From: Pseudomonas alkylphenolica
GTDB lineage: Bacteria; Pseudomonadota; Gammaproteobacteria; Pseudomonadales; Pseudomonadaceae
DNA: 64,000 nt
Direction: 5' to 3'
Assembly: GCF_000746525.1 (NCBI RefSeq)
Contig: NZ_CP009048.1
Span: 1,288,501-1,352,500, forward strand
Part shown: piece after piece, positions 6,518-42,327 of the stretch
Layout: every line of letters begins with the position of its first letter
Position numbering within the stretch: position 1 is the stretch's first letter
Notes under the pieces: generated by a model
Seen by the model: only the letters and a program-made list of their open reading frames with translations
Told to the model about the DNA's origin: nothing
The model's database searches: none
Program-made: the position numbers and the translations under genes

Positions 6518-8215
6518 CTATTCTTTAACGGTTCCGTGACGTGCTTTCCACATCGCCAGAAGCTCTGACGGTAGCTCATCCCAAGATTCAGTTTTGGCAA
6601 AGGTGGCTTCCACCTCGTTCAGGTCGCCTTGGATCACCTGAAGGTCGACATGCTCGTCGTGCATTGCTTCAAAACGGATGTTGCCGCCTTGGTGCATCAG
6701 GTAGAAGAGCAAGTTTGGTGATTCGGCACTGAACAGAGTGGGGATGGCGTTGTTCTTAGTGACCCAATACGTCTCGTCTGTTCTGCCGTTCTTGTTGACG
6801 AAGATGTAGAGGCCAAGCCTCTTGATGAGATTGTTAGCAGCTACCCGGCCTTCAAACGAAACGAGGTCCAGCTTCTTAAAGAAGTCGTCTTTGTTCATCA
6901 CCCTGTCAGATGCCAACTGCTCACTGATGGCTGCACACTCCGATTCAAGAGCACCAATCTCGGCTTCCAGTTCGTGTAGTAGCTTCGCAGTGATGCGGGA
7001 TGGGAACTCAGCGTGTGACGCTTCTGCATCGTCCTGACGCACTTTAAGAGATGCGATGCGGCCTTCTACAATATGCAAAGACTTCTGCAATCTGCCCGAG
7101 CTGTCCTGCACCAGCGACAGGCTGTCTACCTTAGGCAGCATCTCTTTAAATACTTCCTCGGTGCGTGGGGCGCTGATGATCCCGGCGTCACACAGTCCCC
7201 TAGTAACCTTGGAGCATTTGTAATACTTACGGCCACGTTGGCCTTGGAGGTGCATGGCGGCCCCGCATTTGTAGCAATTGAGGATACCTGCCAGCACGTT
7301 GAAATTGGTGGTGGTCTTGGTGACGGTGTGAGTTTTGCGAGACGATCTAGCAGCGTGGGCCAGGTAGTATTCATCCTCAGTCACTACGGAAGGGAAGTAG
7401 CCCTTGATCGGCTCTCCGTCGGGAGTTCTCTTGCCGTCTATGAAGATGTGAGGCTGGTACTCCCCGATGGTCGTCCGGCTGTCGAGGATATGTCGCACGG
7501 TCGAGAAGCCCCACAGGCCGGAGAAATTCTTTCTTCCTGCACTGAAAGCGGGTATGCCCTCCTGATTCAATGTGGCTGCAATGATGCGGGAGCCGTGGCC
7601 CTTTGTGGATAGGTCGAAGATGCGGCGAACAACGGCAGCCTTGTCAGGGTTGAGCACATAGCTATCTGGTGTCACATCGAGCCACAGCGGACGGAGTTTG
7701 CCCAAGGGCTTGCCAGTGGTGCGAGCCTCTTTCTGTTTCGCACGCCATGCAGAGGATACCCGGCCACCCTTGGTTGCCGATTCCTCATGTGCACGTGACA
7801 TTGAGATGATCGAGATGATCAGATCGAGTTCGTTGTATTCCTTGGTATACAGACGTTTGTCCACGCTTGTGTAGACGTTGATGCCCTTGGCCAGCAGGTC
7901 GAGGAATCTTGGAAGGGCGTCACGCACTCGTTCACGTGAAAGACGATCCAGCGATTCCACTACTAGATAGCTGCCGGGTGGGATTGTCCCGTCTTCCACA
8001 TAGCTCAGGAATCGGGCTAGCTCGCCAGTGTCGTCAAGGTGCTTGCCTTTGAAGGCCGAACGCCCTGCATCAAAGAATAGGTATTCTCTCGGGTCCGCCA
8101 GCTCTAAGCCGTTCTCATCGCAAAAGGCTTTGGCTGCCTTTACCTGTCTGGTGTAGCTGTCGCCTGCTGACTGCTTTGCACTACTGAATCTGATGTAGCT
8201 GAAAACCTTGCTCAC
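6518..8215 (-). CDS. Large serine recombinase
   Basis: About 565 residues with the order typical of large serine integrases. First comes a catalytic resolvase domain (YIRFSSAKQ, where the Ser after RF is the likely nucleophile, and ESLDRLSRERV). A recombinase domain follows (about 165-290, KGHGSRIIAATLNQEGIPAF). Next is a zinc ribbon with CYKCGAAM and YYKCSKVTRGLCD, a coiled coil (about 370-430) and a C-terminal tail. It would integrate or excise the element. The GTG start gives the N terminus usual for the family; a TTG five codons upstream is an alternative. Neither has a good ribosome site. The gene begins about 20 bases after the ychJ stop, so it may be read from the ychJ promoter. Confidence 0.9.
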   Translation of the reverse strand: MSKVFSYIRFSSAKQSAGDSYTRQVKAAKAFCDENGLELADPREYLFFDAGRSAFKGKHLDDTGELARFLSYVEDGTIPPGSYLVVESLDRLSRERVRDALPRFLDLLAKGINVYTSVDKRLYTKEYNELDLIISIISMSRAHEESATKGGRVSSAWRAKQKEARTTGKPLGKLRPLWLDVTPDSYVLNPDKAAVVRRIFDLSTKGHGSRIIAATLNQEGIPAFSAGRKNFSGLWGFSTVRHILDSRTTIGEYQPHIFIDGKRTPDGEPIKGYFPSVVTEDEYYLAHAARSSRKTHTVTKTTTNFNVLAGILNCYKCGAAMHLQGQRGRKYYKCSKVTRGLCDAGIISAPRTEEVFKEMLPKVDSLSLVQDSSGRLQKSLHIVEGRIASLKVRQDDAEASHAEFPSRITAKLLHELEAEIGALESECAAISEQLASDRVMNKDDFFKKLDLVSFEGRVAANNLIKRLGLYIFVNKNGRTDETYWVTKNNAIPTLFSAESPNLLFYLMHQGGNIRFEAMHDEHVDLQVIQGDLNEVEATFAKTESWDELPSELLAMWKARHGTVKE

Positions 8216-8234
8216 GAGACAAACGCTCAAATTG

Positions 8235-8708
8235 CTATGGTAGGTAATTGTGGCAACACTTCTTGAATTTCTGCCCGCTGGCGCATGGGCAGGCGTCGTT
8301 GCGTCCGGCTTTCAGGCCGACCGTCGGGTCGATGAAATACCAGTGCCCGTCATTCTGCACAAAGGCCGAACGCTCGCGATGGCTATGTTCGCCGTCATTA
8401 TCGTGCCAGCGGGCAGTGAAGGTGACGAAGGCATGTTCAGGCTTGCCGCCAAATACCTCGGCGCTTTCCACTTCAAGGCCCAACCAGGTGCTTTGCGCGC
8501 TCCAGGCGGCAATCGCGGCGCGGTCAAGGCCGGCCTGCTGCACAGGCAGGGTGGTGTTCACCAGGTAATCGATCAGCCCCAGCACATAGGCGCTGTAGCG
8601 CGAACGCATCAGCGTCTGTGCATCGGGGGCCGGATGCCCGGCGTGATAGTGTCCGCAACAGGCGTCGAGCAGATTACCGCTGCCGCAGGGACAAACCGAG
8701 ACACTCAT
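8235..8708 (-). CDS. YchJ-family SEC-C motif protein
   Basis: Protein of 157 residues of the YchJ/UPF0225 family. An N-terminal SEC-C-like zinc motif ([17 protein letters not shown]) is followed by an NTF2-like middle ([21 protein letters not shown], then FIDPTVGLK), and a second SEC-C motif closes the protein ([16 protein letters not shown]). Biochemical role not known. The start MSVSVCPCG was chosen for family fit. On the ancestral chromosome its ATG would follow the DUF6231 stop after only four bases, so the two were translationally coupled. They are now separated by the 6.25-kb element. Confidence 0.9.
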
Positions 8709-8714
8709 TGTTTC

Positions 8715-8756
8715 ACCACCAGTACTTGCCAAAATTTTGCGGATTGGCCCAGAACT
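8715..8756 (-). repeat. Left attachment site (native DUF6231 3' end)
   Basis: This 42-base copy encodes the tail [14 protein letters not shown] in minus-strand reading, followed by TGA and, four bases later, the ychJ start. Because it abuts ychJ in the natural way, it is the original chromosomal end of the DUF6231 gene, cut off from its body by integration. Confidence 0.85.
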
Positions 8757-9029: not shown

Positions 9030-9605
9030 ATGAGTTACAGCAGTCTCGCGCAATTCTCAGAAGACATTTTTTCAAGTGATCCCAAAGAGCTAATAACTCG
9101 CTGGATCAATACTGAACAACCTCACGCTTTCGCATCCAATGAGGCATATAATGGATTTCGAGAAAAAATAGAGAGGGACTGGCCGCAGAGTGAAATGATT
9201 GCGGTTGCCGGTAGCGGAAACTGGCGATACAGCCTTAATCCAAAAAAGAATTTTGGTGAGTTTCATAAAGGTAGCGATATTGATGTTGTAGTGATAAGTC
9301 GAGAGTATTTCGAGCGTACCTGGCAAGAATTACGCACCATTCATAAGAAGCTCTGGATTCGGTGGACTTCTGATGAGCGTGCTGCTGTGATGCGCACGGG
9401 GCAGAATGTCTACTGTGGGTTTGCCTCTCCGAAATACATTCCCGAGCCCAGAAACTCTTATAGATTTGATTTTCTTAAGAAGTGCAATTCCTACTCCACT
9501 GGAGCTGTTGAGCACAGGGAAGTAAATCTAATGTTTTTCAAGTCTACTGAAGATGCAGTCGACTACTACTTGCGTGGCGTTCGTCTCGCGAAAGGAAAGC
9601 TCTAA
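9030..9605 (+). CDS. Pol-beta-type nucleotidyltransferase, putative defence gene
   Basis: Protein of 191 residues. The motif GSGNWRYSLNPKKNF (61-75) with SDIDVVVIS (82-90) is the GS...DxD signature of the Pol-beta nucleotidyltransferase superfamily. Asp83 and Asp85 would bind metal; a third acidic residue may be Asp147 in SYRFDFLK. It is too short for a CD-NTase with a full C-terminal helical domain. The substrate is unknown: nucleotide second messenger, RNA end or protein AMP transfer are all possible. The DUF262 gene starts in its stop codon (TAATG), so the two products should be made in balance. Codon use is AT-richer than the core. A defence role is inferred from gene pairing and element context. 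Confidence 0.7.
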   Translation: MSYSSLAQFSEDIFSSDPKELITRWINTEQPHAFASNEAYNGFREKIERDWPQSEMIAVAGSGNWRYSLNPKKNFGEFHKGSDIDVVVISREYFERTWQELRTIHKKLWIRWTSDERAAVMRTGQNVYCGFASPKYIPEPRNSYRFDFLKKCNSYSTGAVEHREVNLMFFKSTEDAVDYYLRGVRLAKGKL

Positions 9606-10642
9606 TGGAATATGAAGTTAGCTTGCAAACTATTGCGTGGATAAACTCGCAGAGGAACGAAGAGAAGCTTGAGATTAGTGCTGCCTTCCAGCGGCGTGCT
9701 GTATGGCTTGAGCGTGAGCGGGCTGAGCTTATTGCGACTATTCTCGACGGCCTACCGTTTCCAGAGATCTATATTCATGTCGTCACTGATGCAGACAGTG
9801 GGAAACAAACCCATATTGTTGTAGATGGACAGCAGCGAACTACTTCGATTTTGATGTTCATTGATAATGAGTTTTCCCTTCCGTCAGGACGTACAGGGTC
9901 AGCAGCCTACTTTCGCGATCTTAGTGCCGAAACGAAAGAGAGGTTTTGGGACTATAAGGTCGTAGTTCGTAGCCTCAGGAAGACAAATGATGCTGAGATT
10001 CGTGACATTTTTGCACGTCTCAATACCAATAATATAACGCTAAATGACCAAGAGCTTCGGAATGCGAAGTATGTTGGTAAGTTTAAGCAGGCCGCTGAAC
10101 GCTTGGCAGATAACCCTCTCTTCGAAGACATGGGGCTTTTCACTGCTCGGGATATGCGAAGGATGCTTGACGTAGAGTTTGTGTCTGAGCTCCTGCTTCG
10201 GCTTACTATTGGTATTGTAAATAAGAAGGATTTGCTGGAAGAAACCTATGCCGCTTATGAGGAGGAGTTTCCAGGGGAGGCGCAGTATGAAACGGAGTTT
10301 ACAACGGCAATGTCTTTGATTTGGAGTGTATATGACGACTCCATAAAGGCGTCTTACAAATCAAGGGGTAACTTCTCGAGTATATTTGGTTGCTTTGTTG
10401 AGTATTACAGAGTTACTGGTCGAAGAGCATTTCTTCAGCCGCAGCTCGTTAAGGAGGTATTCAGCAGTTTCTTGAACGCGGTACGCAATAGAGAGTTTTC
10501 GGATGAAGCAGCGAACATTGAGATTTATCACGATGCTGTGTCTCGTGCGTCCTCTGACCGGTCACGTCGTGCACGTCGAGAGAACATTCTGAGCGAGCTC
10601 CTCGTTCAGGCAGGGGAGCTCAAACAGCCATTCAACCTCTGA
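9605..10642 (+). CDS. DUF262-domain protein, putative defence partner
   Basis: Protein of 345 residues. FQRRAVW (28-34), then LIATILDGLPFPEIYI, then VVDGQQRTTSI (72-82) are hallmark DUF262 motifs. DGQQR is the nucleotide-using motif of GmrS, BrxU and SspE. FARLNTNNITLNDQELRNAKY (about 135-155) is also typical. Unlike GmrSD or BrxU it has no visible DUF1524 HNH nuclease part; its C-terminal 120 residues are helical and unassigned. Translationally coupled to the nucleotidyltransferase. DUF262 proteins of known role are phage-defence factors that sense or cut modified DNA, so a role in defence is likely, but the mechanism with a nucleotidyltransferase is unknown. Confidence 0.8.
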   Translation: MEYEVSLQTIAWINSQRNEEKLEISAAFQRRAVWLERERAELIATILDGLPFPEIYIHVVTDADSGKQTHIVVDGQQRTTSILMFIDNEFSLPSGRTGSAAYFRDLSAETKERFWDYKVVVRSLRKTNDAEIRDIFARLNTNNITLNDQELRNAKYVGKFKQAAERLADNPLFEDMGLFTARDMRRMLDVEFVSELLLRLTIGIVNKKDLLEETYAAYEEEFPGEAQYETEFTTAMSLIWSVYDDSIKASYKSRGNFSSIFGCFVEYYRVTGRRAFLQPQLVKEVFSSFLNAVRNREFSDEAANIEIYHDAVSRASSDRSRRARRENILSELLVQAGELKQPFNL

Positions 10643-10892
10643 TCAACATTCGGCTTGTGCTTTGTTTAGGCGAGCCATCATGTTGATGGCAGGCGGGCCA
10701 GCAGGTCATGCAAGGGGCATAGGCACCTTGACCACATCAGCAATGATGTCCAAAAGGTATGCTTGGCACTACGGATGACGGTAGCTATCCCAGGACAGCA
10801 ATGGTGGTCCTTATTGCCCGCCCGTGAGGTTCCCTATGGCGCCTGCGCGAGGGCCTACGGGGTAACCTGCGCGGGAATGATTGATTAGATGA
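10643..10892. other. Non-coding gap between convergent gene blocks
   Basis: This region lies between the right-going defence pair and the left-going phage-type genes. An imperfect hairpin is formed by AGGTTCCC at about 10828 and GGGGTAACCT at about 10860. It might end transcription, but there is no run of T. No gene recognised. Confidence 0.4.
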
Positions 10893-10991
10893 TCATTCAG
10901 AAATTTTCTGTATTTTCTCAACGGGGCTTATGCCACAGCCAGCAGGCCAGATGGACAGCCACACAGACCACGTAGGCAGCCTGTAGTCCAT
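10893..10991 (-). CDS. Tiny protein downstream of KilA-N gene (32 aa)
   Basis: An AAGGAG ribosome site lies six bases before the ATG, which begins 23 bases after the KilA-N stop. The 32-residue product starts MDYRLPTWSVWLSIWPAG and is Trp-rich. Strong ribosome sites in front of tiny frames are common in T7-like phages, but there is no similarity to lean on. Confidence 0.4.
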   Translation of the reverse strand: MDYRLPTWSVWLSIWPAGCGISPVEKIQKISE

Positions 10992-11014: not shown

Positions 11015-11764
11015 TCAGTAGTCCGGGGATGACGACTTGAGGTTCTCCTTGAGTCGCGCCTTGGCATCCCGCTGGGCTTTGTCCTTACGGGCTTTCACTT
11101 CGACCACTCGAAGGTTCACCGCTTCGGCGTTCTTACGGAGCCAATCCAGACCACGAGGCTTTACCCGCCATCCTTCACGGTTACCGAAGTCCGATGAGAC
11201 CTTCACAAAGGCGCCCACCACGAAGCCCTGAGGTTTTGGTCGAGGCGAACCCTCACGGGTCCCGAAGTCGTCCACGGGATACACAAAGTTGCCCATGGTG
11301 ACCAGAGCGTCCTGAGCGAGTCGAGGTTGTTGAATACCAGCCACACGGCAAGCCTCGGTCCATGTAAGACCAGCACCTCGGGCTTTCATGTCGAGGGTCG
11401 AAGCCTTGGGCATGTTGGCGTCTAAGAGGGCATCCTTACGGCGAAGCTCACGGACTGCACTGTTACGCATGGCGACGAAGGCGTCCACGACCATCACATA
11501 GAAGTCCAGAGAGCAAGCCATGGCATAGGCGATGGTCGCCCTCTCAGTTGCGTAAGAGCCACCACTATCACCGTGAACGGTATGCAGATTTGCACATCGG
11601 TCGAAGTAGTCCCGATCACGACCACGCCATTGAGCAGGTGGTTTTGTCAGGTCGGGTAAAGCCTTGTTGATTTCCGTGAGACTCCACAGGCCCTCAGCGT
11701 TTGGCTTGAAGGTGTGCCCTTCGATAACGATAGGCAGCAGGTCGGTTTGGTTGTTGGTCAGCAT
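11015..11764 (-). CDS. KilA-N domain phage regulatory protein
   Basis: Protein of 249 residues. The first 110 residues fit the KilA-N DNA-binding domain: GHTFKPNAEGLWSLTEINKA, PPAQWRGRDRDYFDRC, and GGSYATERATIAYAMACSLDFYVMVVDAFVAMR. KilA-N proteins of phages act as antirepressors or regulators. The second half is unassigned but has two similar segments (VDDFGTREGSPRPKPQGF and SSDFGNREGWRVKPRGL), suggesting an internal repeat that may bind DNA. The tail is lysine-rich. An AAGGA site precedes the start. A long stem-loop lies just upstream, and two phage-type promoters about 750-830 bases upstream point toward this gene. Confidence 0.8.
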   Translation of the reverse strand: MLTNNQTDLLPIVIEGHTFKPNAEGLWSLTEINKALPDLTKPPAQWRGRDRDYFDRCANLHTVHGDSGGSYATERATIAYAMACSLDFYVMVVDAFVAMRNSAVRELRRKDALLDANMPKASTLDMKARGAGLTWTEACRVAGIQQPRLAQDALVTMGNFVYPVDDFGTREGSPRPKPQGFVVGAFVKVSSDFGNREGWRVKPRGLDWLRKNAEAVNLRVVEVKARKDKAQRDAKARLKENLKSSSPDY

Positions 11765-12099: not shown

Positions 12100-12222
12100 T
12101 GAGAGAATAGGTATTATCATGGTCGCCAGACCAATCCATAACTTAGAGGTGTGCTTAAGAAAAACTTAAATATTAAGGATAATGATTTAATTAAAGATAA
12201 TAGTTATAGAGTTACTCATTGA
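12100..12222. other. AT-rich tract downstream of tandem phage promoters
   Basis: A stretch of strongly AT-rich DNA (runs such as TTAAATATTAAGG and TTAATTAAAGATAAT) in an otherwise GC-rich element. It lies downstream of two phage-type promoters in their direction of transcription, as the AT-rich part of the T7 primary origin does. An origin role is inferred, not shown. Confidence 0.45.
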
Positions 12223-12347
12223 GCAATCTCTAAGATCTTTAAGGTAAAGGCCCCCGTGCAACTTGAGCAATACACGGTGGCCCCAATTCCGTGCAAGGTC
12301 TCTCTGCGGTGTCTACATGGACATCGAGTAACGAGTGACAATATCAA
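12216..12347 (-). CDS. Small zinc-ribbon protein (43 aa)
   Basis: The product ends with CPCRHRRETLHGIGATVYCSSC, a CxC...CxxC arrangement that should bind one zinc ion. The TTG start was chosen because AGGAGGG stands nine bases before it. The same frame is open back to an ATG at 12515, which would give 99 residues. However, that ATG lies inside the core of a phage promoter, and the added part (TRATETTETTSATT) looks like non-coding composition. Function unknown; zinc-ribbon miniproteins are common in phages. Confidence 0.5.
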   Translation of the reverse strand: MILSLVTRCPCRHRRETLHGIGATVYCSSCTGAFTLKILEIAQ

Positions 12348-12506
12348 GCTGCGCTCCCTCCTACTGGAGCCAGACGCTGAAGGTCTGCTTACCGGGGAAC
12401 GGTTGAGCGCTTGGCGTGCCTCCCCGTGATGGGTGGTCGCACTGGTCGTCTCGGTCGTCTCGGTCGCCCGTGTAGGTGGGCGGTAGGGGGCCTTAGAGAT
12501 TGCCTC

Positions 12507-12529
12507 TGTAGCCATAGTGAGGGTTTCTG
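12507..12529 (-). promoter_or_regulatory. T7-type phage RNA polymerase promoter 2 (gh-1-like)
   Basis: Minus-strand sequence with core AAACCCTCACTATGGC. It agrees with the promoter consensus of P. putida phage gh-1, as I remember it, at about 20 of 23 positions. The core CCCTCACTA is also that of phage T3. It reads toward the zinc-ribbon and KilA-N genes. No matching single-subunit RNA polymerase is encoded in the window. Confidence 0.7.
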
Positions 12530-12569
12530 ACCCCGCAGAGATAGCACCTCAACCAAAGCCAAGGTTGTC

Positions 12570-12592
12570 TCTCTCAATAGTGAGGGTTAAAT
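12570..12592 (-). promoter_or_regulatory. T7-type phage RNA polymerase promoter 1 (T3-like)
   Basis: Minus-strand sequence with TTAACCCTCACTA then GAGAGA. It matches the T3 promoter (AATTAACCCTCACTAAAGGG then AGA) at 19 of 23 positions. It stands 63 bases upstream of the second promoter in the same direction. Two independent matches to the same rare core argue against chance. Confidence 0.72.
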
Positions 12593-12795: not shown

Positions 12796-12936
12796 TTACT
12801 CGTATTCAGACAAACAGTTAGCACACAGATCATGGCCTCCGACATCGGCAACTACAGGCCCGTTACCGCACTGGTCGCACTCATTGCCAAGGTCGTCGTC
12901 GTTGTCTTTCTCATCGTCAAGATCAAACTCGTTCAT
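12796..12936 (-). CDS. Small acidic zinc-finger protein (46 aa)
   Basis: MNEFDLDDEKDNDDDLGNE is an acidic head. The Cys pairs C20-x2-C23 and C38-x2-C41 then form one zinc ribbon (CDQCGNGPVVADVGGHDLC, then ANC). A GAGGAG ribosome site stands before the ATG. Acidic miniproteins of phages often act as DNA mimics or as inhibitors of host enzymes. That role is only suggested here by charge and size. Upstream of the phage promoters, so probably read from a host promoter. Confidence 0.65.
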   Translation of the reverse strand: MNEFDLDDEKDNDDDLGNECDQCGNGPVVADVGGHDLCANCLSEYE

Positions 12937-13019: not shown

Positions 13020-13250
13020 CTACCTTCTGGCTTTGTTCTCTTTATTGGAAGCGTAGGCACCTATACCTCCTGAAACGACAATCAGGACTGCGTTTGCCCA
13101 AAGAGGAATATCTGCAAACTGGTCACCAGAGTTAATCAACGGACCATTGTGGAAAAAGCCCCCTACAAAAATCCCAATTAATAGGTAGGCCATTCCACTG
13201 AACACGACCCATTGGAAAAAATTAGCCCGTATTCCCTGTATGAATCTCAT
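13020..13250 (-). CDS. Small two-span membrane protein
   Basis: Protein of 76 residues with hydrophobic segments at about 12-33 (FQWVVFSGMAYLLIGIFVGG) and 48-66 (IPLWANAVLIVVSGGIGAY), and a basic tail (SNKENKARR). It probably spans the inner membrane twice. An AAGGA site supports the ATG. It lies between the integrase gene and the small zinc-finger gene, on the same strand. Family and function unknown; exclusion or holin-like roles are conceivable. Confidence 0.6.
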   Translation of the reverse strand: MRFIQGIRANFFQWVVFSGMAYLLIGIFVGGFFHNGPLINSGDQFADIPLWANAVLIVVSGGIGAYASNKENKARR

Positions 13251-14933: not shown

Positions 14934-14962
14934 GGTTACGTAAGCCCTTGATATTCATGGGT

Positions 14963-15457
14963 TTACCACCAGTACTTCCCAAACATTTCCGGGTTGGCCC
15001 AGAACTTGGCATTGAGCCAGTCCGGGACCTGCTTGTATTCACGTAGATCATAGGTGAACAGGCTCAGGACCTGATCATCGCGCTGAAATTTTTCGTTGGC
15101 TTGCAGGGCCAGGGCGAAGAAATCGGTGTCTTGCCAGCCGCAGGCGCTCAGGTCGGCCAGCACTGCCACGCGGCTGGCATTGAGGTTGCGGATGCCGCCG
15201 AGCAACTGCAGACCATCGCGCTTGGGCAGGTGCTCCAGGCAATCGACCAGCAAGGCTAGATCAAAGCGCTGAGCGGCCAAGTCCGTAGGTAAAGGTCCCG
15301 GCTTGGTCTGGGCAATCTCCACGTGCGGGTGTGCCTGGACAAAGACGTCCAAAGCCGGAAAACGCGTGCCGACCAGTAATAAACGTTGCGGTAGATGGTG
15401 TTCAAGCAGCGCCGCCAGGGCTTGCTGCGGGGTTCGTTGGGAAAATCCGTCAATCAT
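14963..15457 (-). CDS. DUF6231-type, methyltransferase-like protein; integration target
   Basis: Protein of 164 residues, conserved in Pseudomonas beside ychJ. RLLLVGTRFPALDVF and FDLALLVDCLEHLPKRDGLQLL recall the nucleotide-binding and post-motif regions of class I methyltransferases, but the glycine motif is poor, so enzymatic activity is uncertain. The name DUF6231 is from memory. The last 14 codons are supplied by the integrated element and differ slightly from the native end. It is likely still functional. The gene now lacks its natural coupling to ychJ. Confidence 0.8.
   Translation of the reverse strand: MIDGFSQRTPQQALAALLEHHLPQRLLLVGTRFPALDVFVQAHPHVEIAQTKPGPLPTDLAAQRFDLALLVDCLEHLPKRDGLQLLGGIRNLNASRVAVLADLSACGWQDTDFFALALQANEKFQRDDQVLSLFTYDLREYKQVPDWLNAKFWANPEMFGKYWW
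14965..15006 (-). repeat. Right attachment site (element-borne DUF6231 3' end)
   Basis: Second 42-base copy, encoding KFWANPEMFGKYWW and TAA. It differs from the native copy at five positions, of which two are silent. The element therefore brought its own version of the gene end, which keeps the host reading frame whole after integration. Confidence 0.85.
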
Positions 15458-18880: not shown

Positions 18881-21025
18881 ATGATCAGCAACGAACTCAA
18901 AACCACGATTCAGGGCGCCTATTCGCGTTTTCTCGAAGCCAAGAGCCTCAAGCCTCGCTACGGCCAGCGTCTGATGATCGCCGAAGTGGCCAAGGTGCTT
19001 GGCGATATCGCCTGTGACGATGAAGGTCGGCGCGCCGGCGATCCCGCCGTGGTGGCGGTCGAGGCCGGTACCGGTACCGGCAAGACGGTTGCCTATAGCC
19101 TGGCCTCGATTCCCGCTGCCAAGGCCGCCGGCAAGCGTCTGGTGATCGCCACCGCGACGGTAGCCCTGCAGGAGCAGATCGTCTTCAAAGACCTGCCCGA
19201 CCTGATGCGCAACAGCGGCCTGAACTTCACCTTCGCCCTGGCCAAGGGGCGTGGTCGCTATCTGTGCCTGTCCAAGCTCGACCTGTTGCTGCAGGAGGGC
19301 CATGCACAATCGGCCACTGCGCAGCTGTTCGAGGAAGAGGGCTTCAAGATCGAGGTCGACGAAGCCAGCCAGAAGCTGTTCACCAGCATGATCGAGAAGC
19401 TTGCCGGCAACCGCTGGGACGGCGACCGTGACAGCTGGCCGCAAGCCCTGGAAGACCAGGACTGGGCACGCCTGACCACCGACCACAGCCAATGCACCGG
19501 CCGCCATTGCCCGAACTTTGGCCAGTGCACCTTCTACAAGGCCCGTGAGGGCATGGGTAAGGTCGATGTCATCGTCACCAACCACGACATGGTCCTGGCC
19601 GACCTGGCCCTGGGCGGTGGCGCGGTGTTGCCTGATCCGCGCGACACCATCTATGTGTTCGACGAAGGCCATCACCTGCCGGACAAGGCCATTGGCCATT
19701 TCGCCCACTACACCCGTCTGCGTTCCACCGCCGACTGGCTCGAGCAAACCGCCAAGAACCTGACGAAGCTGCTGGCCCAGCACCCTTTGCCGGGCGACCT
19801 GGGCAAGCTGATCGAGCAGGTGCCGGAACTGGCGCGGGAGATCAAGGCCCAGCAACAGTTCATGTTCAGCGCCTGTGAGCAGGTGGCCGATTTCCGTCCC
19901 GGCGAAGATATGGAGGGCCGCGAGCGGCCGCGTCACCGCTTCGAGGGCGGTGTGGTGCCCGAGCACATGCGCGAGATGGGGATCGAGCTGAAGAAGGGCT
20001 TCTCACGCCTGACCGATCTGTTCACCCGTCTGACCGAATTGCTTAAAGAAGGTATGGATGCCGAGGTCAATATCGGTATTGCCAGCCATCAGGCCGAAGA
20101 GTGGTACCCGTTGTTCGGCAGCCTGTTGATGCGTGCCCAGGGCAACTGGGAGTTGTGGACCGCCTTCACCGCAGAAGACCCGGAAGACAGCCCGCCCATG
20201 GCCCGCTGGTTGACCCTGGCCGAGAGCGGGGCGCTGTTCGACATCGAGGTCAATGCCAGCCCGATCCTCGCGGCTGAAATGCTGCGGCGCAATCTGTGGA
20301 ACGTTGCCCATGGTGCGCTGGTTACCTCGGCAACCCTGACCGCACTGGGCAAGTTCGATCGCTTCCGCATGCGCGCCGGTCTGCCCAAGGATGCGGTCAC
20401 CAGCGTTGTGCCCAGCCCTTTCCATCATGTCGATGCCGGTGTGTTGCGGGTGCCGGACTTGCGTGCCGACCCTCGGGACGCGGCGGCACACACCGCGGCG
20501 ATCATTCGTGATCTGCCGGAGCTGGTTGAAGGTTCGCGTGGTTCGCTGGTGCTGTTCTCTTCGCGCAAGCAGATGCAGGACGTGTTCGATGGCCTGGATC
20601 GCGACTGGCGCAAGCAGGTGTTCATCCAGGGCAACCTGTCCAAGCAGGAAACCCTGAACAAACACAAGGCGCGTGTCGATGGCGGCGATTCCAGCGTCCT
20701 GTTCGGCCTGGCAAGCTTTGCCGAAGGCGTCGACTTGCCGGGCGCCTACTGTGAGCACGTGGTTATTGCCAAGATCCCCTTCGCGGTACCGGATGATCCG
20801 GTCGAGGCGGCCCTGGCCGAGTGGATCGAAGCGCGTGGCGGCAACCCGTTCATGGAAATCGCCGTACCAGACGCTTCGCTGCGCCTGATCCAGGCCTGCG
20901 GCCGCCTGCTGCGTACCGAAGAGGACCGCGGCACTATCACCCTGCTGGACCGACGTGTGGTCACCCAGCGCTACGGTAAGGCTATTCTCAATGCCTTGCC
21001 GCCGTTTCGACGGGAAATTTCCTGA
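18881..21025 (+). CDS. dinG: ATP-dependent DNA helicase DinG
   Basis: Protein of 714 residues, XPD-like superfamily 2 helicase. Walker A is VEAGTGTGKTVAYSL (about 62-76). The iron-sulfur cysteines lie in GRYLCLSKLD, QCTGRHCPNF and GQCTFYKAR. The Walker B box is VFDEGHHLPD. Motif VI is LIQACGRLLRTEEDRGTI. It unwinds DNA 5' to 3' and resolves R-loops and D-loops. Length fits E. coli DinG (716). A possible LexA site precedes it. Confidence 0.95.
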   Translation: MISNELKTTIQGAYSRFLEAKSLKPRYGQRLMIAEVAKVLGDIACDDEGRRAGDPAVVAVEAGTGTGKTVAYSLASIPAAKAAGKRLVIATATVALQEQIVFKDLPDLMRNSGLNFTFALAKGRGRYLCLSKLDLLLQEGHAQSATAQLFEEEGFKIEVDEASQKLFTSMIEKLAGNRWDGDRDSWPQALEDQDWARLTTDHSQCTGRHCPNFGQCTFYKAREGMGKVDVIVTNHDMVLADLALGGGAVLPDPRDTIYVFDEGHHLPDKAIGHFAHYTRLRSTADWLEQTAKNLTKLLAQHPLPGDLGKLIEQVPELAREIKAQQQFMFSACEQVADFRPGEDMEGRERPRHRFEGGVVPEHMREMGIELKKGFSRLTDLFTRLTELLKEGMDAEVNIGIASHQAEEWYPLFGSLLMRAQGNWELWTAFTAEDPEDSPPMARWLTLAESGALFDIEVNASPILAAEMLRRNLWNVAHGALVTSATLTALGKFDRFRMRAGLPKDAVTSVVPSPFHHVDAGVLRVPDLRADPRDAAAHTAAIIRDLPELVEGSRGSLVLFSSRKQMQDVFDGLDRDWRKQVFIQGNLSKQETLNKHKARVDGGDSSVLFGLASFAEGVDLPGAYCEHVVIAKIPFAVPDDPVEAALAEWIEARGGNPFMEIAVPDASLRLIQACGRLLRTEEDRGTITLLDRRVVTQRYGKAILNALPPFRREIS

Positions 21026-37059: not shown

Positions 37060-37979
37060 ACTTTTTCAACCTCCGGACGGCCGAGGATGCCGGTCGGACG
37101 GAACAACAGCACCAGAACCAAAAGACCGAAGGCCACCACGTCCTTGTACTGGTCGCCGAAGATGTCGGCGCCAAAGGCTTCAGCCACCCCCAGCACCAGC
37201 CCGCCGAGCATCGCGCCCGGAATACTGCCGATGCCGCCCAGCACCGCCGCGGTGAAGGCTTTCAGGCCTACCAGGAATCCGGCGTTGGGGTTGATCACGC
37301 CGTACTGCATGCTCAGCAGTACCGCCGCCACAGCCGCCAGAGCGGCACCGATGACGAAGGTCAGGGCGATGATGTTGTTGGTGTTGATACCCAGCAGGTT
37401 GGCCATCTTGATGTCTTCGGCGCAGGCGCGGCAGGCGCGGCCCAGGCGGGAACGGGAGATGAACAGGGTCAAACCGGTCATGGCCACTAGCGTGACGACG
37501 AAAACCAGGATCTGCATGTAAGAGATCAGCACTTCCTCTGCGCCGCCTGGGCCGAAGGAGATACTCCCCGGGATCAGGTTGGGGATGGACTTGTCCTTGG
37601 AGTCCTGGGATAGCAATACGGTGTTCTGCAGGAAAATCGACATACCGATGGCAGAAATCAGCGGGATCAACCGGTTGCTGTTACGCAAGGGGCGGTAGGC
37701 GACCCGTTCGATACTGTAGCCATAGGCACTGGTTACGAAGATCGTGGCGACGAAGGCGACGGTCATCAATATCGGCAGTGAATCGATACCCATCATGGCC
37801 AGCCCGGCAAGGGCAATGAAGGCCACGTAGGAACCGATCATGTAAACCTCGCCATGGGCGAAGTTGATCATTCCAATGATGCCGTAAACCATTGTGTAGC
37901 CAATGGCTATCAAGGCATAGGTGCTGCCAATGGTCAGACCATTAACCAGCTGTTGGAAGAAGTGATAGATCTCAGGCAT
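37056..37979 (-). CDS. livH: Branched-chain amino-acid permease BraD/LivH
   Basis: Protein of 307 residues with about eight membrane spans. [20 protein letters not shown] and [20 protein letters not shown] are typical of LivH. First gene after the hairpin that follows braC. Forms the membrane channel with BraE. Confidence 0.96.
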
Positions 37980-40143: not shown

Positions 40144-42327
40144 TCAGTAATCCACTTTTCCAGTATGACTGTTCAGCGAAATCACCCGGGTCTTGCCGAT
40201 CCGGTGACGGAAGATTTCGCGCAGGTACTTCACTGCCTTCTTCACGCATTCGCGCGACAGTCGAATGTCATTGATCGAGACGAACTTGCTCTTGTCGTTG
40301 ATCAGCTCGCGGTACTTCTTCTCGTACATCGGCTTTATCGCGTACCAGTTGGTATCGAGGATTTTCGCCGGGTTTTCGAATTCATTGAGCAGATCATCGA
40401 TGCGTTCTTCATCGAAGGTATCGCTGGTGATGAACTCCAGGATGGCGTTGTCCAGGGTGTCGTCGAAACGGTACGGGTTACGCGCAAAGCAGCGCTTGAT
40501 GAAGGCCACGATCAAGGTCAGGAAGTCGTCCGACAGGCATGGGCTCTTGGCGATCAAGGTAGTCAGCGACAGGTTCGCCGAAGCGCCGATCACCAGGGCA
40601 TAGCGCTTGAGGGTGGTGTTGGGGAACAGGCTGTTGAGGTGGGTCTTGAGCCGGTTCAGGTCCATGTACGAGAGTTTGTAGTCCTTGGGCAGGGAGACGA
40701 TCGACACCACCGACGAACAGTTCTTGAAGAAGTGCAGGTCGTGCAGGGCCGCCGCGTCATAACCGGAGGCCTTGTACTGTTCCAGCGCTGCGCGATAGCG
40801 CTTGGACTCGATCGGCAACAGGCTGATGCCTTCGATCGCCTGGGTCACCTTGTTGAAGTGCGGCAGGTCGATGGAGCGGAAGAACAGGTCGTCGATGTTC
40901 AGACGCGGCTGGTCCTTCTCGAACACTTTGAATTTATCCGAATTCGGTGACGGCTGTTCCGGTACTACGGACTCCGCGTAGGCAATGGCTACGGGGCCGG
41001 CCAGGCTCATGAACAGGTCGTTGGCATCCAGGCGAATGGTTTCGCCGATGTCGATGCCGGCACGACGGAAGTAGTTCTGGTCGTAGTCGGTAGTCACCGC
41101 CTGGGCGGTCAGGATGTTGAAGATCTGCTGGGAGATGTACTGGTTGGCGTGCTTTTCCATGGCATTGACATCAATGTTCTGGATGTTGCCGTCATCATTC
41201 TCTTCGGCGTAACGCATGATGTCGTTGGAAATCAGCATCATCGCGTTCCACGGGCGGATGCGCCCCATGACGCTGGCTTCGCTGCTGTCTTCATTGTCGA
41301 AGTTATAGGAGAAGTCCCATTCTTCGGACAGGTACTTGCACAACAGGCGTCCGGCGTTGATGTGCAAAGCCTCGGACATTTCGCTGCGGTGATCGGAAAT
41401 GTTCGGCAGTACGCAGATGCCGCTGGTGAAGATCGGTTCGAAGACGAACGAGTGTCCGCTCTTGCCGTCGTTTTCGTCGGCCGGCTTGGTGTCGAAGGTC
41501 TTGTTCATGTACGAGTACTGCTGGGCCAGGCCGAACTCCGAGGCCATGCCCGAACCGGTACCACCACCGGCGCTGAAAATGTAGAAGTACAACCGCGACT
41601 GGTTGGCCTTGATCCCGCAGGAGTCGATCAGATACGAGTGGATCAGTTTCCAGTCGGCGCTGGAAAAACGATGGGTTTCCTTGTTGAGGATGATCTTGGC
41701 CAGGTACTGGCCGAGGATCGGCGCGTTACCGGCGCCCCCGGCATGGACTTCCGAGAGGTCCATGATCTTCATCTTGCTGTAGTCGCGGATGAAGCCGCTT
41801 TTTTCACCCTTGCGCGAGAAGCGGATACGACCGGCAATGTCTTTGTCCAGGTCGCCCAGCATTACCAGCGGCTCAACCAGGAACACCGGCTTGCTGCCCT
41901 TGTTCTGTACCAGGCGCAGATTGTTGCGGATCCAGCGTGCGGGGCTGTAGGTGGGCTCGCTGCCGGTGCGGTCTTCGTTGTTGAATTCGTTGAGATAGAA
42001 GGTGCGGGCGTTGTATACAAGTTCGGCGACATCGAGGGCGATGTTCGAGCCGCAACGGCCCAGGCCGATCAGGCAGACCGACGGGAACTGCTGATCCAGG
42101 CGTAGCTGGCTATCGTCTTCGACGTGGACACTGGGCGGAAACACCAGATCACGCAGGCCGTCGAGGTTGTCGAGGATGCGCTGGATATCGGGCTCGGTGA
42201 AATACAGGTACTGCTGCGGGTTAAGCGTTCGCGGGCTGTAGAATTCTCTGGGCCCTGGAGCGCTGAACGCGGGAGTGGGTGAAGTCAGCTCGGAAACCGC
42301 GTTGGCAGAAGTAGTCTTGGAGGTCAT
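40144..42327 (-). CDS. Tubulin/FtsZ-superfamily protein (Tubulin-like)
   Basis: Protein of 727 residues. CLIGLGRCGSNIALDVAEL (85-103) is the first nucleotide loop and FSAGGGTGSGMASEFG (251-266) is the tubulin/FtsZ GGGTGSG signature, so it should bind GTP. It is far longer than FtsZ (about 390), with big inserts and a C-terminal helical half. It fits the bacterial tubulin-like families described by comparative genomics as possible membrane-remodelling proteins. It stands alone here, without the vWA-type neighbours such genes often have. The start ATG has no strong ribosome site, but the N-terminal 70 residues look disordered in any case. Polymerisation is unproven. Confidence 0.82.
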   Translation of the reverse strand: MTSKTTSANAVSELTSPTPAFSAPGPREFYSPRTLNPQQYLYFTEPDIQRILDNLDGLRDLVFPPSVHVEDDSQLRLDQQFPSVCLIGLGRCGSNIALDVAELVYNARTFYLNEFNNEDRTGSEPTYSPARWIRNNLRLVQNKGSKPVFLVEPLVMLGDLDKDIAGRIRFSRKGEKSGFIRDYSKMKIMDLSEVHAGGAGNAPILGQYLAKIILNKETHRFSSADWKLIHSYLIDSCGIKANQSRLYFYIFSAGGGTGSGMASEFGLAQQYSYMNKTFDTKPADENDGKSGHSFVFEPIFTSGICVLPNISDHRSEMSEALHINAGRLLCKYLSEEWDFSYNFDNEDSSEASVMGRIRPWNAMMLISNDIMRYAEENDDGNIQNIDVNAMEKHANQYISQQIFNILTAQAVTTDYDQNYFRRAGIDIGETIRLDANDLFMSLAGPVAIAYAESVVPEQPSPNSDKFKVFEKDQPRLNIDDLFFRSIDLPHFNKVTQAIEGISLLPIESKRYRAALEQYKASGYDAAALHDLHFFKNCSSVVSIVSLPKDYKLSYMDLNRLKTHLNSLFPNTTLKRYALVIGASANLSLTTLIAKSPCLSDDFLTLIVAFIKRCFARNPYRFDDTLDNAILEFITSDTFDEERIDDLLNEFENPAKILDTNWYAIKPMYEKKYRELINDKSKFVSINDIRLSRECVKKAVKYLREIFRHRIGKTRVISLNSHTGKVDY

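Follow-up and report, generated by a model that had tools for sequence, protein, structure and literature searches.

The 6,250-bp element described here is, at a probability that we put near 0.86, a satellite of gh-1/T3-type (Studiervirinae) phages and belongs to a family found across Pseudomonas. It was analysed within a stretch of 64,000 nucleotides from Pseudomonas alkylphenolica (the window, to whose positions coordinates refer unless a locus or phage is named). Judging from its sequence, the element integrates at defined att sites by means of its own integrase, appears to lack genes for autonomous virion formation, and carries two signals that a helper phage is predicted to recognise, namely a promoter for a phage-type RNA polymerase (site A) and a terminal-repeat junction. 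Its induction, replication and transfer would then be the work of the helper, and its genes would presumably stay silent until infection. A sequence-only reading of the same DNA had proposed a satellite or an infection-triggered trap of T7-like phages; the satellite half of that proposal gained support from the relatives, from the terminal-repeat junction and from a clade of integrases that use the same att site.

An integrated element without virion genes

As the sequence-only reading had it, the element occupies about 6.25 kb between att sites: it measures 6,250 bp and is bounded by a 52-bp imperfect repeat (8705-8756 and 14955-15006). Insertion took place at the 3' end of a gene for a DUF6231 protein, and a YchJ-like gene lies next to it (both named by Pfam). 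Its features are as follows.

8705..8756, no strand: far att repeat; by sequence the original DUF6231 3' end, adjoining the YchJ-like gene; repeat offset 6,250 bp
9030..9605, plus: cargo gene 1, nucleotidyltransferase (NTP_transf_2), 191 aa, defence-like; Pfam 22.3 bits, weak PADLOC cyclase match
9605..10642, plus: cargo gene 2, DUF262 / GmrSD_N, 345 aa, defence-like; Pfam 2.7e-23, PADLOC NsnA 7.6e-37 over residues 13-333
10843..10934, minus: pac-like junction motif, matching the start of the helpers' right direct terminal repeat; profile E 3.1e-15
11015..11764, minus: KilA-N/Rha-like phage regulator, 249 aa, family C1; PHROG 129 and 2812, ~3e-5
12154..12233, no strand: AT-rich, origin-like stretch; lowest-G+C 80-bp segment of the element, 21%, 287 bp downstream of promoter A
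12247..12405, minus: structured RNA, ~160 nt, 8 helices in the consensus, downstream of promoter A; covariance model 173.6 bits
12507..12529, minus: T7-class (gh-1 type) phage promoter A; matrix 25.1 bits, identical 20-mer in T7-like contigs
12570..12592, minus: promoter-like site B (T3-like), less secure; 9.7 bits, exact core
12796..12936, minus: small acidic ORF with two CxxC pairs, ~46 aa; read from sequence
13020..13250, minus: small ORF, membrane-like by reading, 76 aa, family C25; common to the second element of the same genome
13461..14933, minus: tyrosine integrase, 490 aa; Pfam Phage_integrase 1.5e-13
14955..15006, no strand: near att repeat (52-bp imperfect repeat); DUF6231 3' end supplied by the element

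Read along the minus strand from the integrase end, the order is integrase, 76-aa ORF, CxxC ORF, promoter B, promoter A, structured RNA, AT-rich stretch, KilA-N-like regulator and junction motif. The nucleotidyltransferase and DUF262 genes lie beyond the motif on the plus strand, and this pair probably serves host defence. The KilA-N gene claimed from the letters stood in part, with weak matches to PHROG regulators and none in Pfam; the protein has no similarity to the phTUNSv antirepressor, and its family, C1, is present in 26 of the 39 att-bounded elements assembled below. For the 76-aa ORF neither Pfam nor PHROG gave a match. The integrase is 46% identical to that of the T7-like phage 3MF5.

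Searched by tblastn, the window held no match to the RNA polymerase, large terminase, capsid or portal of 3MF5 or to the gh-1 polymerase, in agreement with the earlier claim that the element encodes no single-subunit RNA polymerase; the same scan found phage polymerase matches in five other loci (L030, L042, L101, L104, L106). The gh-1 polymerase had no match in the whole genome, and neither Pfam nor PHROG recognised a polymerase, large terminase, portal or capsid family among the element's proteins. A PF00940 search of the genome was uninformative, its controls being silent as well. Outside the element, a large serine recombinase gene (6518-8230, by Pfam) directly adjoins the YchJ-like gene; it seems, then, that another integrated element, unrelated to the satellite, borders it on the left.

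A family of near-constant length

Integrase searches gave 28 loci in named genomes, 3 in viral contigs and 52 matches in 43 of 298 genus genomes; 34 regions around such matches were taken up, the remainder, besides the two of the window's genome, being weaker or partial. In all, 67 loci were scanned, or 61 after removal of 6 duplicates, and 39 of them are bounded by att repeats (six boundaries were set by hand). The 22 without assigned att repeats, which comprise truncated contigs, full phages or prophages, L038 and others (including L018-L020, L028, L032, L037 and L105), were left out of the 39. The sequence-only reading had suggested looking for relatives of constant size, and relatives that share the integrase and the phage-promoter arrangement and are of near-constant size do exist: bounded elements occur in at least 21 of the 298 genus genomes, besides the named genomes, and 34 of the 39 measure 6.25-6.74 kb. 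The five outliers are L025 (5.07 kb), L091 (7.73 kb), L099 (7.80 kb, with an insertion inside the integrase), L095 (7.86 kb) and L027 (9.83 kb). Two or three elements per genome were found in 3 of the 21 genomes with bounded elements. A second one, measuring 6,692 bp, lies in the window's own genome and encodes an HNH protein, a DRT-like reverse transcriptase and a DUF6680 protein:

L008:14559-19901 with L009:1-1400: second satellite of the window's genome; T7-class promoter, same structured RNA, junction motif

Some loci at the margin of the set deserve mention. On a contig labelled Streptomyces sp. IBSBF 2953, L031 matches the Pseudomonas satellite L036, with the same promoters and the same place for the junction, and is probably contamination. 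In L018, L019 and L020, for which no att repeats were found, promoters, and in L019 and L020 the capsid gene too, lie 3-8.5 kb from the integrase; these are possibly enlarged or composite elements.

In the integrase tree, the window's element groups with four satellites of the same att site (support 100/100; five genomes, all elements 6.25-6.65 kb). A second clade unites 22 other satellite rows (100/99) and holds no phage row; many of its members share one att sequence, which we take to be the nadB 3' end. Phage and prophage integrases form three groups placed among the satellites. Because the satellites do not make up one integrase clade, either integrases have been exchanged or satellites arose more than once; the sequences indicate that satellites within clades of their own are separate lineages and not fresh deletions. 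The sequence-only reading had named, as one case against it, relatives that are full T7-like prophages ending in this element, and the five-element clade contains no phage row. Nor did the window's element, as far as its sequence tells, show the marks of a defective T7-like prophage, these being other T7-like fragments or prophage sisters in its integrase clade.

L038 stands apart, its integrase sitting on a very long branch. At L038:9950-13900, ~3.9 kb hold an integrase, a terminase fragment, one promoter and the junction motif; this looks like a mini-remnant of a T7-like prophage and is perhaps an intermediate toward the satellites. Promoter orientation had been considered as an argument against a deleted prophage and was dropped, since promoters and integrase point the same way in L030, L042, L101, L104 and L106, as they do in satellites. 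The integrase of 3MF5 and that of phTUNSv, by contrast, are oriented toward the promoters.

Promoters of the T7 class

The two minus-strand cores claimed by the sequence-only reading, ACCCTCACTAT at 12514-12524 and 12577-12587, were both confirmed at a spacing of 63 bases, and they are the only two exact copies of ACCCTCACTAT in the whole 5.76-Mb single-contig genome. The gh-1/T3 resemblance claimed along with them was upheld for site A and proved weak for site B. Site A is identical to a gh-1 promoter (L003, core at 19910) at 20 of 23 positions and scores 25.1 bits by a matrix built on 19 distinct CCCTCACT-bearing sites of gh-1, 3MF5 and phTUNSv, against a best score of 18.6 in random sequence (6 Mb, both strands). 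Its 20-base core recurs exactly at 15 places in 10 IMG/VR stretches (9 contigs), of which 14 are directly upstream of a T7-like phage scaffold or capsid gene and one follows a portal gene at a contig end. Site A, which we treat as the decisive one, can on these sequence grounds be assigned to the 23-bp consensus class of single-subunit phage RNA polymerases. Site B has the exact core, scores 9.7 bits by the same matrix and agrees at 19 of 23 positions with the T3 consensus; its 20-mer has no exact match in IMG/VR, and it is a weak and less secure promoter candidate. Sigma-70-like sites in the element did not rise above shuffles.

Across the family the pattern is strictly directional. The 39 elements carry 64 sites of at least 16 bits, every one on the integrase strand, with none on the opposite strand and none in 580,146 flanking bases; at least one such site is present in 35 elements, the exceptions being L074, L078, L092 and L100. 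Promoter pairs within an element differ by 3.82 mismatches, compared to 6.49 between elements (34 pairs; a value that low in none of 2000 shuffles; kinship uncorrected), a likeness that would be expected if each element follows one polymerase. The 15-mer AAACCCTCACTATGG occurs 8 times in 7 of 398 genus genomes, each time within such an element (its reversed control, 2 times).

A conserved RNA module with covariation

Between promoter A and the AT-rich stretch, an RNA module is conserved in 14 loci, for which RNAalifold gives 45 pairs. In this consensus, 98.0% of cells are paired (slid controls 38-43%, shuffled mean 90.7), 15 of the 45 pairs have changed on both sides (shuffled mean 7.8), and the covariation score is 0.265 versus 0.131, a value that none of 500 shuffles reached. 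A covariance model built from these 14 copies, the window's among them, found 16 matches in 69 sources, all in satellites and 14 of them its own training sequences: 13 of the 39 bounded elements, L024, L109, which is a copy on a viral contig, and L022, where the match is weak. A strong match is absent from 26 of the 39 elements, and the model found none in the three phages that were searched. Run on 99 genomes, it returned 4 matches, all in satellites already known, and Rfam reported nothing at gathering level in the element. At the same place (0-350 bp after the promoter), six elements (L036, L084, L088, L094, L080 and L096) have strongly folding stretches of other sequence, which are perhaps further types of the same RNA. 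The lowest-G+C segment lies 240-340 bp after a promoter in 15 of 35 elements, where 0.96 would be expected, the range having been picked after the distances were seen.

A junction motif shared with the ends of T7-like phage genomes

The second helper-type signal is the junction motif. A profile trained on 26 elements, with the window's excluded, was first run on six sequences, where, besides the window, it matched gh-1 at 37099-37186 and 3MF5 at 41292-41368, both across the annotated start of the right terminal repeat, as well as the end of the phTUNSv record and the second element of the window's genome (a training member), with no further match below 0.03; since phage sequences had served as probes to locate the training set, the phage matches are not wholly independent. 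The motif is single-copy in 37 of the 39 elements (11 of 13 among those outside training), always on the integrase strand, and was undetected in L022 and L095. Outside the 39, the profile matched only L031, L038 and L105 among the 61 loci scanned. Its polarity relative to the promoters is that of the phage. In a BLAST search of the L017 element against phages, which hit 38 records, five of the 30 matches listed were integrase-only and most others were one short stretch, with a terminal-repeat annotation under the match in 15 of the 30 listed. That relatives have the terminal-repeat junction of the helpers argues for packaging, and so for a satellite more than for a simple trap.

The two signals can also be compared within one element. 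L080 has Warsawvirus-type promoters, a junction nearest that of 3MF5 and antirepressor-region DNA 90.7% identical to phTUNSv, so that promoter and junction types here agree on a presumptive Warsawvirus-like helper. Such concordance is not general: in L079 the promoter is of gh-1 type, and the junction is closer to that of 3MF5 (33 versus 24). In the window, the motif stands 2.1 kb from the far att site, compared to 0.2-0.6 kb elsewhere; together with the missing capsid gene (see below), this displacement suggests that the window's element may be an altered or decayed member.

A capsid gene in most members, defence-like cargo in others

A gene of HK97 capsid fold (family C2; the fold comes from structure comparison) is present in 30 of the 39 elements and is found neither in the window's element nor in the second element of its genome. 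Pfam, PHROGs and PDB sequences gave no significant match to C2, and a sequence profile showed no relation to the 3MF5 capsid, which is visible only by fold; the family was not found in 3MF5 or gh-1. It was also absent from 369 genomes of the class, a set nearly all outside the genus and with no positive control. Family C3, from its position upstream of the capsid gene, is perhaps a scaffold.

Among capsid-less elements, the window's, L008, L015, L089 and L097 stay at 6.25-6.74 kb, and the others are off-length (5.07, 7.73, 7.86 and 9.83 kb). Integer multiples of these lengths all come near 37-41 kb (7.73 and 7.86 kb times 5, 9.83 kb times 4, 5.07 kb times 8, 6.25-6.74 kb times 6). Gh-1-like genomes are mostly 40-41 kb among those listed, gh-1 itself 37.4 kb, and six units of 6,250 bp amount to 37.5 kb, compatible with a concatemer of helper-genome size. 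As a proof, whole-number packing was rejected and is kept as a working hypothesis: by estimate, roughly half of all possible lengths would fall into an allowed band, which makes the length outliers weak evidence, and L099 is no case of it.

Several capsid-less elements carry defence-like cargo (DUF262, reverse transcriptase, FRG domain, Lamassu LmuB). The LmuB-type protein is encoded by the 7.9-kb element at L095:3472-5544 (PADLOC 3.4e-106), and two adjacent radical-SAM proteins with weak viperin-profile matches by the 7.7-kb element at L091:11516-14130. In the 9.8-kb Stutzerimonas element (L027:12999-16958), a protein of 1,319 aa has an SLT transglycosylase domain and is in this reminiscent of internal virion protein D of T7-like phages. 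The window's closest relative by integrase has a capsid-family ORF of just 164 aa (L075:13718-14212) with an opposite-strand ORF alongside, which suggests step-wise replacement of the capsid region by cargo.

Alternative explanations

The element might be the degraded end of a T7-like prophage that retained integrase, promoter and genome end. The 46% identity of its integrase to that of 3MF5 fits this, and L038 shows that remnants exist; that satellites ultimately derive from prophages is indeed quite possible, given the shared integrase/promoter direction in the five polymerase-bearing loci and the phage integrases among the satellite ones. As an account of this element, however, we consider it very improbable. 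Neither the five-element clade at the window's att site nor the 22-row clade has a phage row, 34 of 39 elements are of near-equal length, 30 of 39 have a capsid family that neither 3MF5 nor gh-1 was found to carry, and the covariance model of the structured RNA gave no match in the three phages searched. The near-constant length, the common capsid family, the RNA and the clades make a chance deletion unlikely and largely refute a recent one. It is also improbable that we are dealing with a defence island without transfer of its own, in which phage promoters act as the tripwire of an abortive response. Although the defence-like cargo of several capsid-less elements would suit such an island, the window's cargo lies on the strand opposite the phage promoters, and integrase, att sites, junction motif and unit length are all kept, none of which a sessile trap would need.

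A closer rival shares the satellite reading and differs on packaging: the element would be packed only as single 6.25-kb units in the small heads of co-resident capsid-bearing satellites, and thus be a satellite of satellites. That the five capsid-less elements named above keep the capsid-bearing length, and that 3 of 21 genomes hold two or three elements, speaks for it. We nevertheless find it rather unlikely, because neither element detected in the window's genome has a capsid gene, and because the other capsid-less elements are off-length, as whole-number packing in helper heads would allow.

Proposed cycle and its meaning

For the preferred reading, a satellite of T7-like phages, we envisage the following cycle. 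The single-subunit RNA polymerase of the infecting helper would read promoter A, and perhaps B, to yield the structured RNA and the KilA-N-like regulator. On entering the AT-rich stretch, the transcript could serve the helper replisome as a primer of replication, in the manner of T7 origins. Excised element DNA would then form concatemers, which the helper terminase would cut at the junction motif and pack. Capsid-bearing relatives probably build small heads for one unit, and the window's element may travel as a six-unit multimer (37.5 kb) in helper heads, or in the heads of another satellite. Taken in full, the proposal has somewhat less than an even chance of being right: that these are the first satellites of T7-like phages, that the helper polymerase, by reading promoters that follow its specificity, is the inducer without any helper-sensing repressor, that the new RNA serves replication (as a ColE1 RNA II-like pre-primer) or packaging, and that members travel in small heads built from a minimal HK97-fold capsid protein of their own or, if capsid-less and defence-armed, inside helper heads as multimers of whole units.

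As a group, T7-like phages serve as a standard model, and plant-associated Pseudomonas are hosts to many of them. If the proposal is true, satellites can be activated through mimicry of helper promoters without a protein that acts as sensor, and a capsid-encoding genome of 6.5 kb and near-constant length would offer a test of how head size and packaging fix genome size. The structured RNA of the family is new as well, its candidate roles being few and testable, and the elements are a further site in which anti-phage genes may be sought.

Comparison with known systems

Phage satellites are known as a kind. In the open-licence literature on satellites and on T7 concatemer packaging, as far as the parts available to us go, we did not find a satellite family of T7-like phages; nor did we meet there a helper of this type, a polymerase-mimic switch, a minimal capsid gene of this kind or the RNA, and the family is apparently undescribed.

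The closest precedent in the parts of that literature available to us is PICMI of Vibrio, a 6.1-kb integrated satellite of virulent phages with few genes, which is carried as an 8-copy concatemer in full-size helper particles (PMC10803314). PICMI is integrated next to fis, and its random packaged ends suggest headful packaging (PMC10803314). It resembles the present element in being a small integrated satellite and sets a precedent for the multimers that are proposed here. Unlike PICMI as described there, which belongs to Vibrionaceae and sits at fis, the family is found in Pseudomonas at other att genes (in the window, DUF6231). Its promoters are of the type that the helper's RNA polymerase is predicted to read, and it has a terminal-repeat junction motif; a third of its members have the structured RNA, and most have a capsid gene of their own. 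A cf-PICI-type element, by the account available to us, encodes capsid, portal, protease, adaptor and terminases (PMC13230959), and cf-PICIs average 14 kb (PMC10803314). The family described here, in contrast to what those accounts give, has ~6.5 kb, one capsid protein and perhaps a scaffold; among the window element's proteins there are no portal, protease or terminase genes and no C2 (for relatives, selected proteins were scanned).

On the helper side, the Warsawvirus phages 3MF5 and phTUNSv have a related integrase, and their antirepressor-region DNA is shared with one element; promoter class and terminal-repeat junction are common to them and to the Ghunavirus gh-1. Unlike the elements, 3MF5, phTUNSv and gh-1 are complete phages of 37-42 kb with polymerase, replication and structural genes. 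The putative origin and packaging signals of the element have counterparts in T7 itself, where the primary origin consists of tandem T7 promoters and an AT-rich stretch, and where plasmids with the concatemer junction are packed as multimers and transduced. Unlike that system of origin and plasmid, the present one is natural and integrated, and it places a structured RNA between the promoter and the AT-rich stretch.
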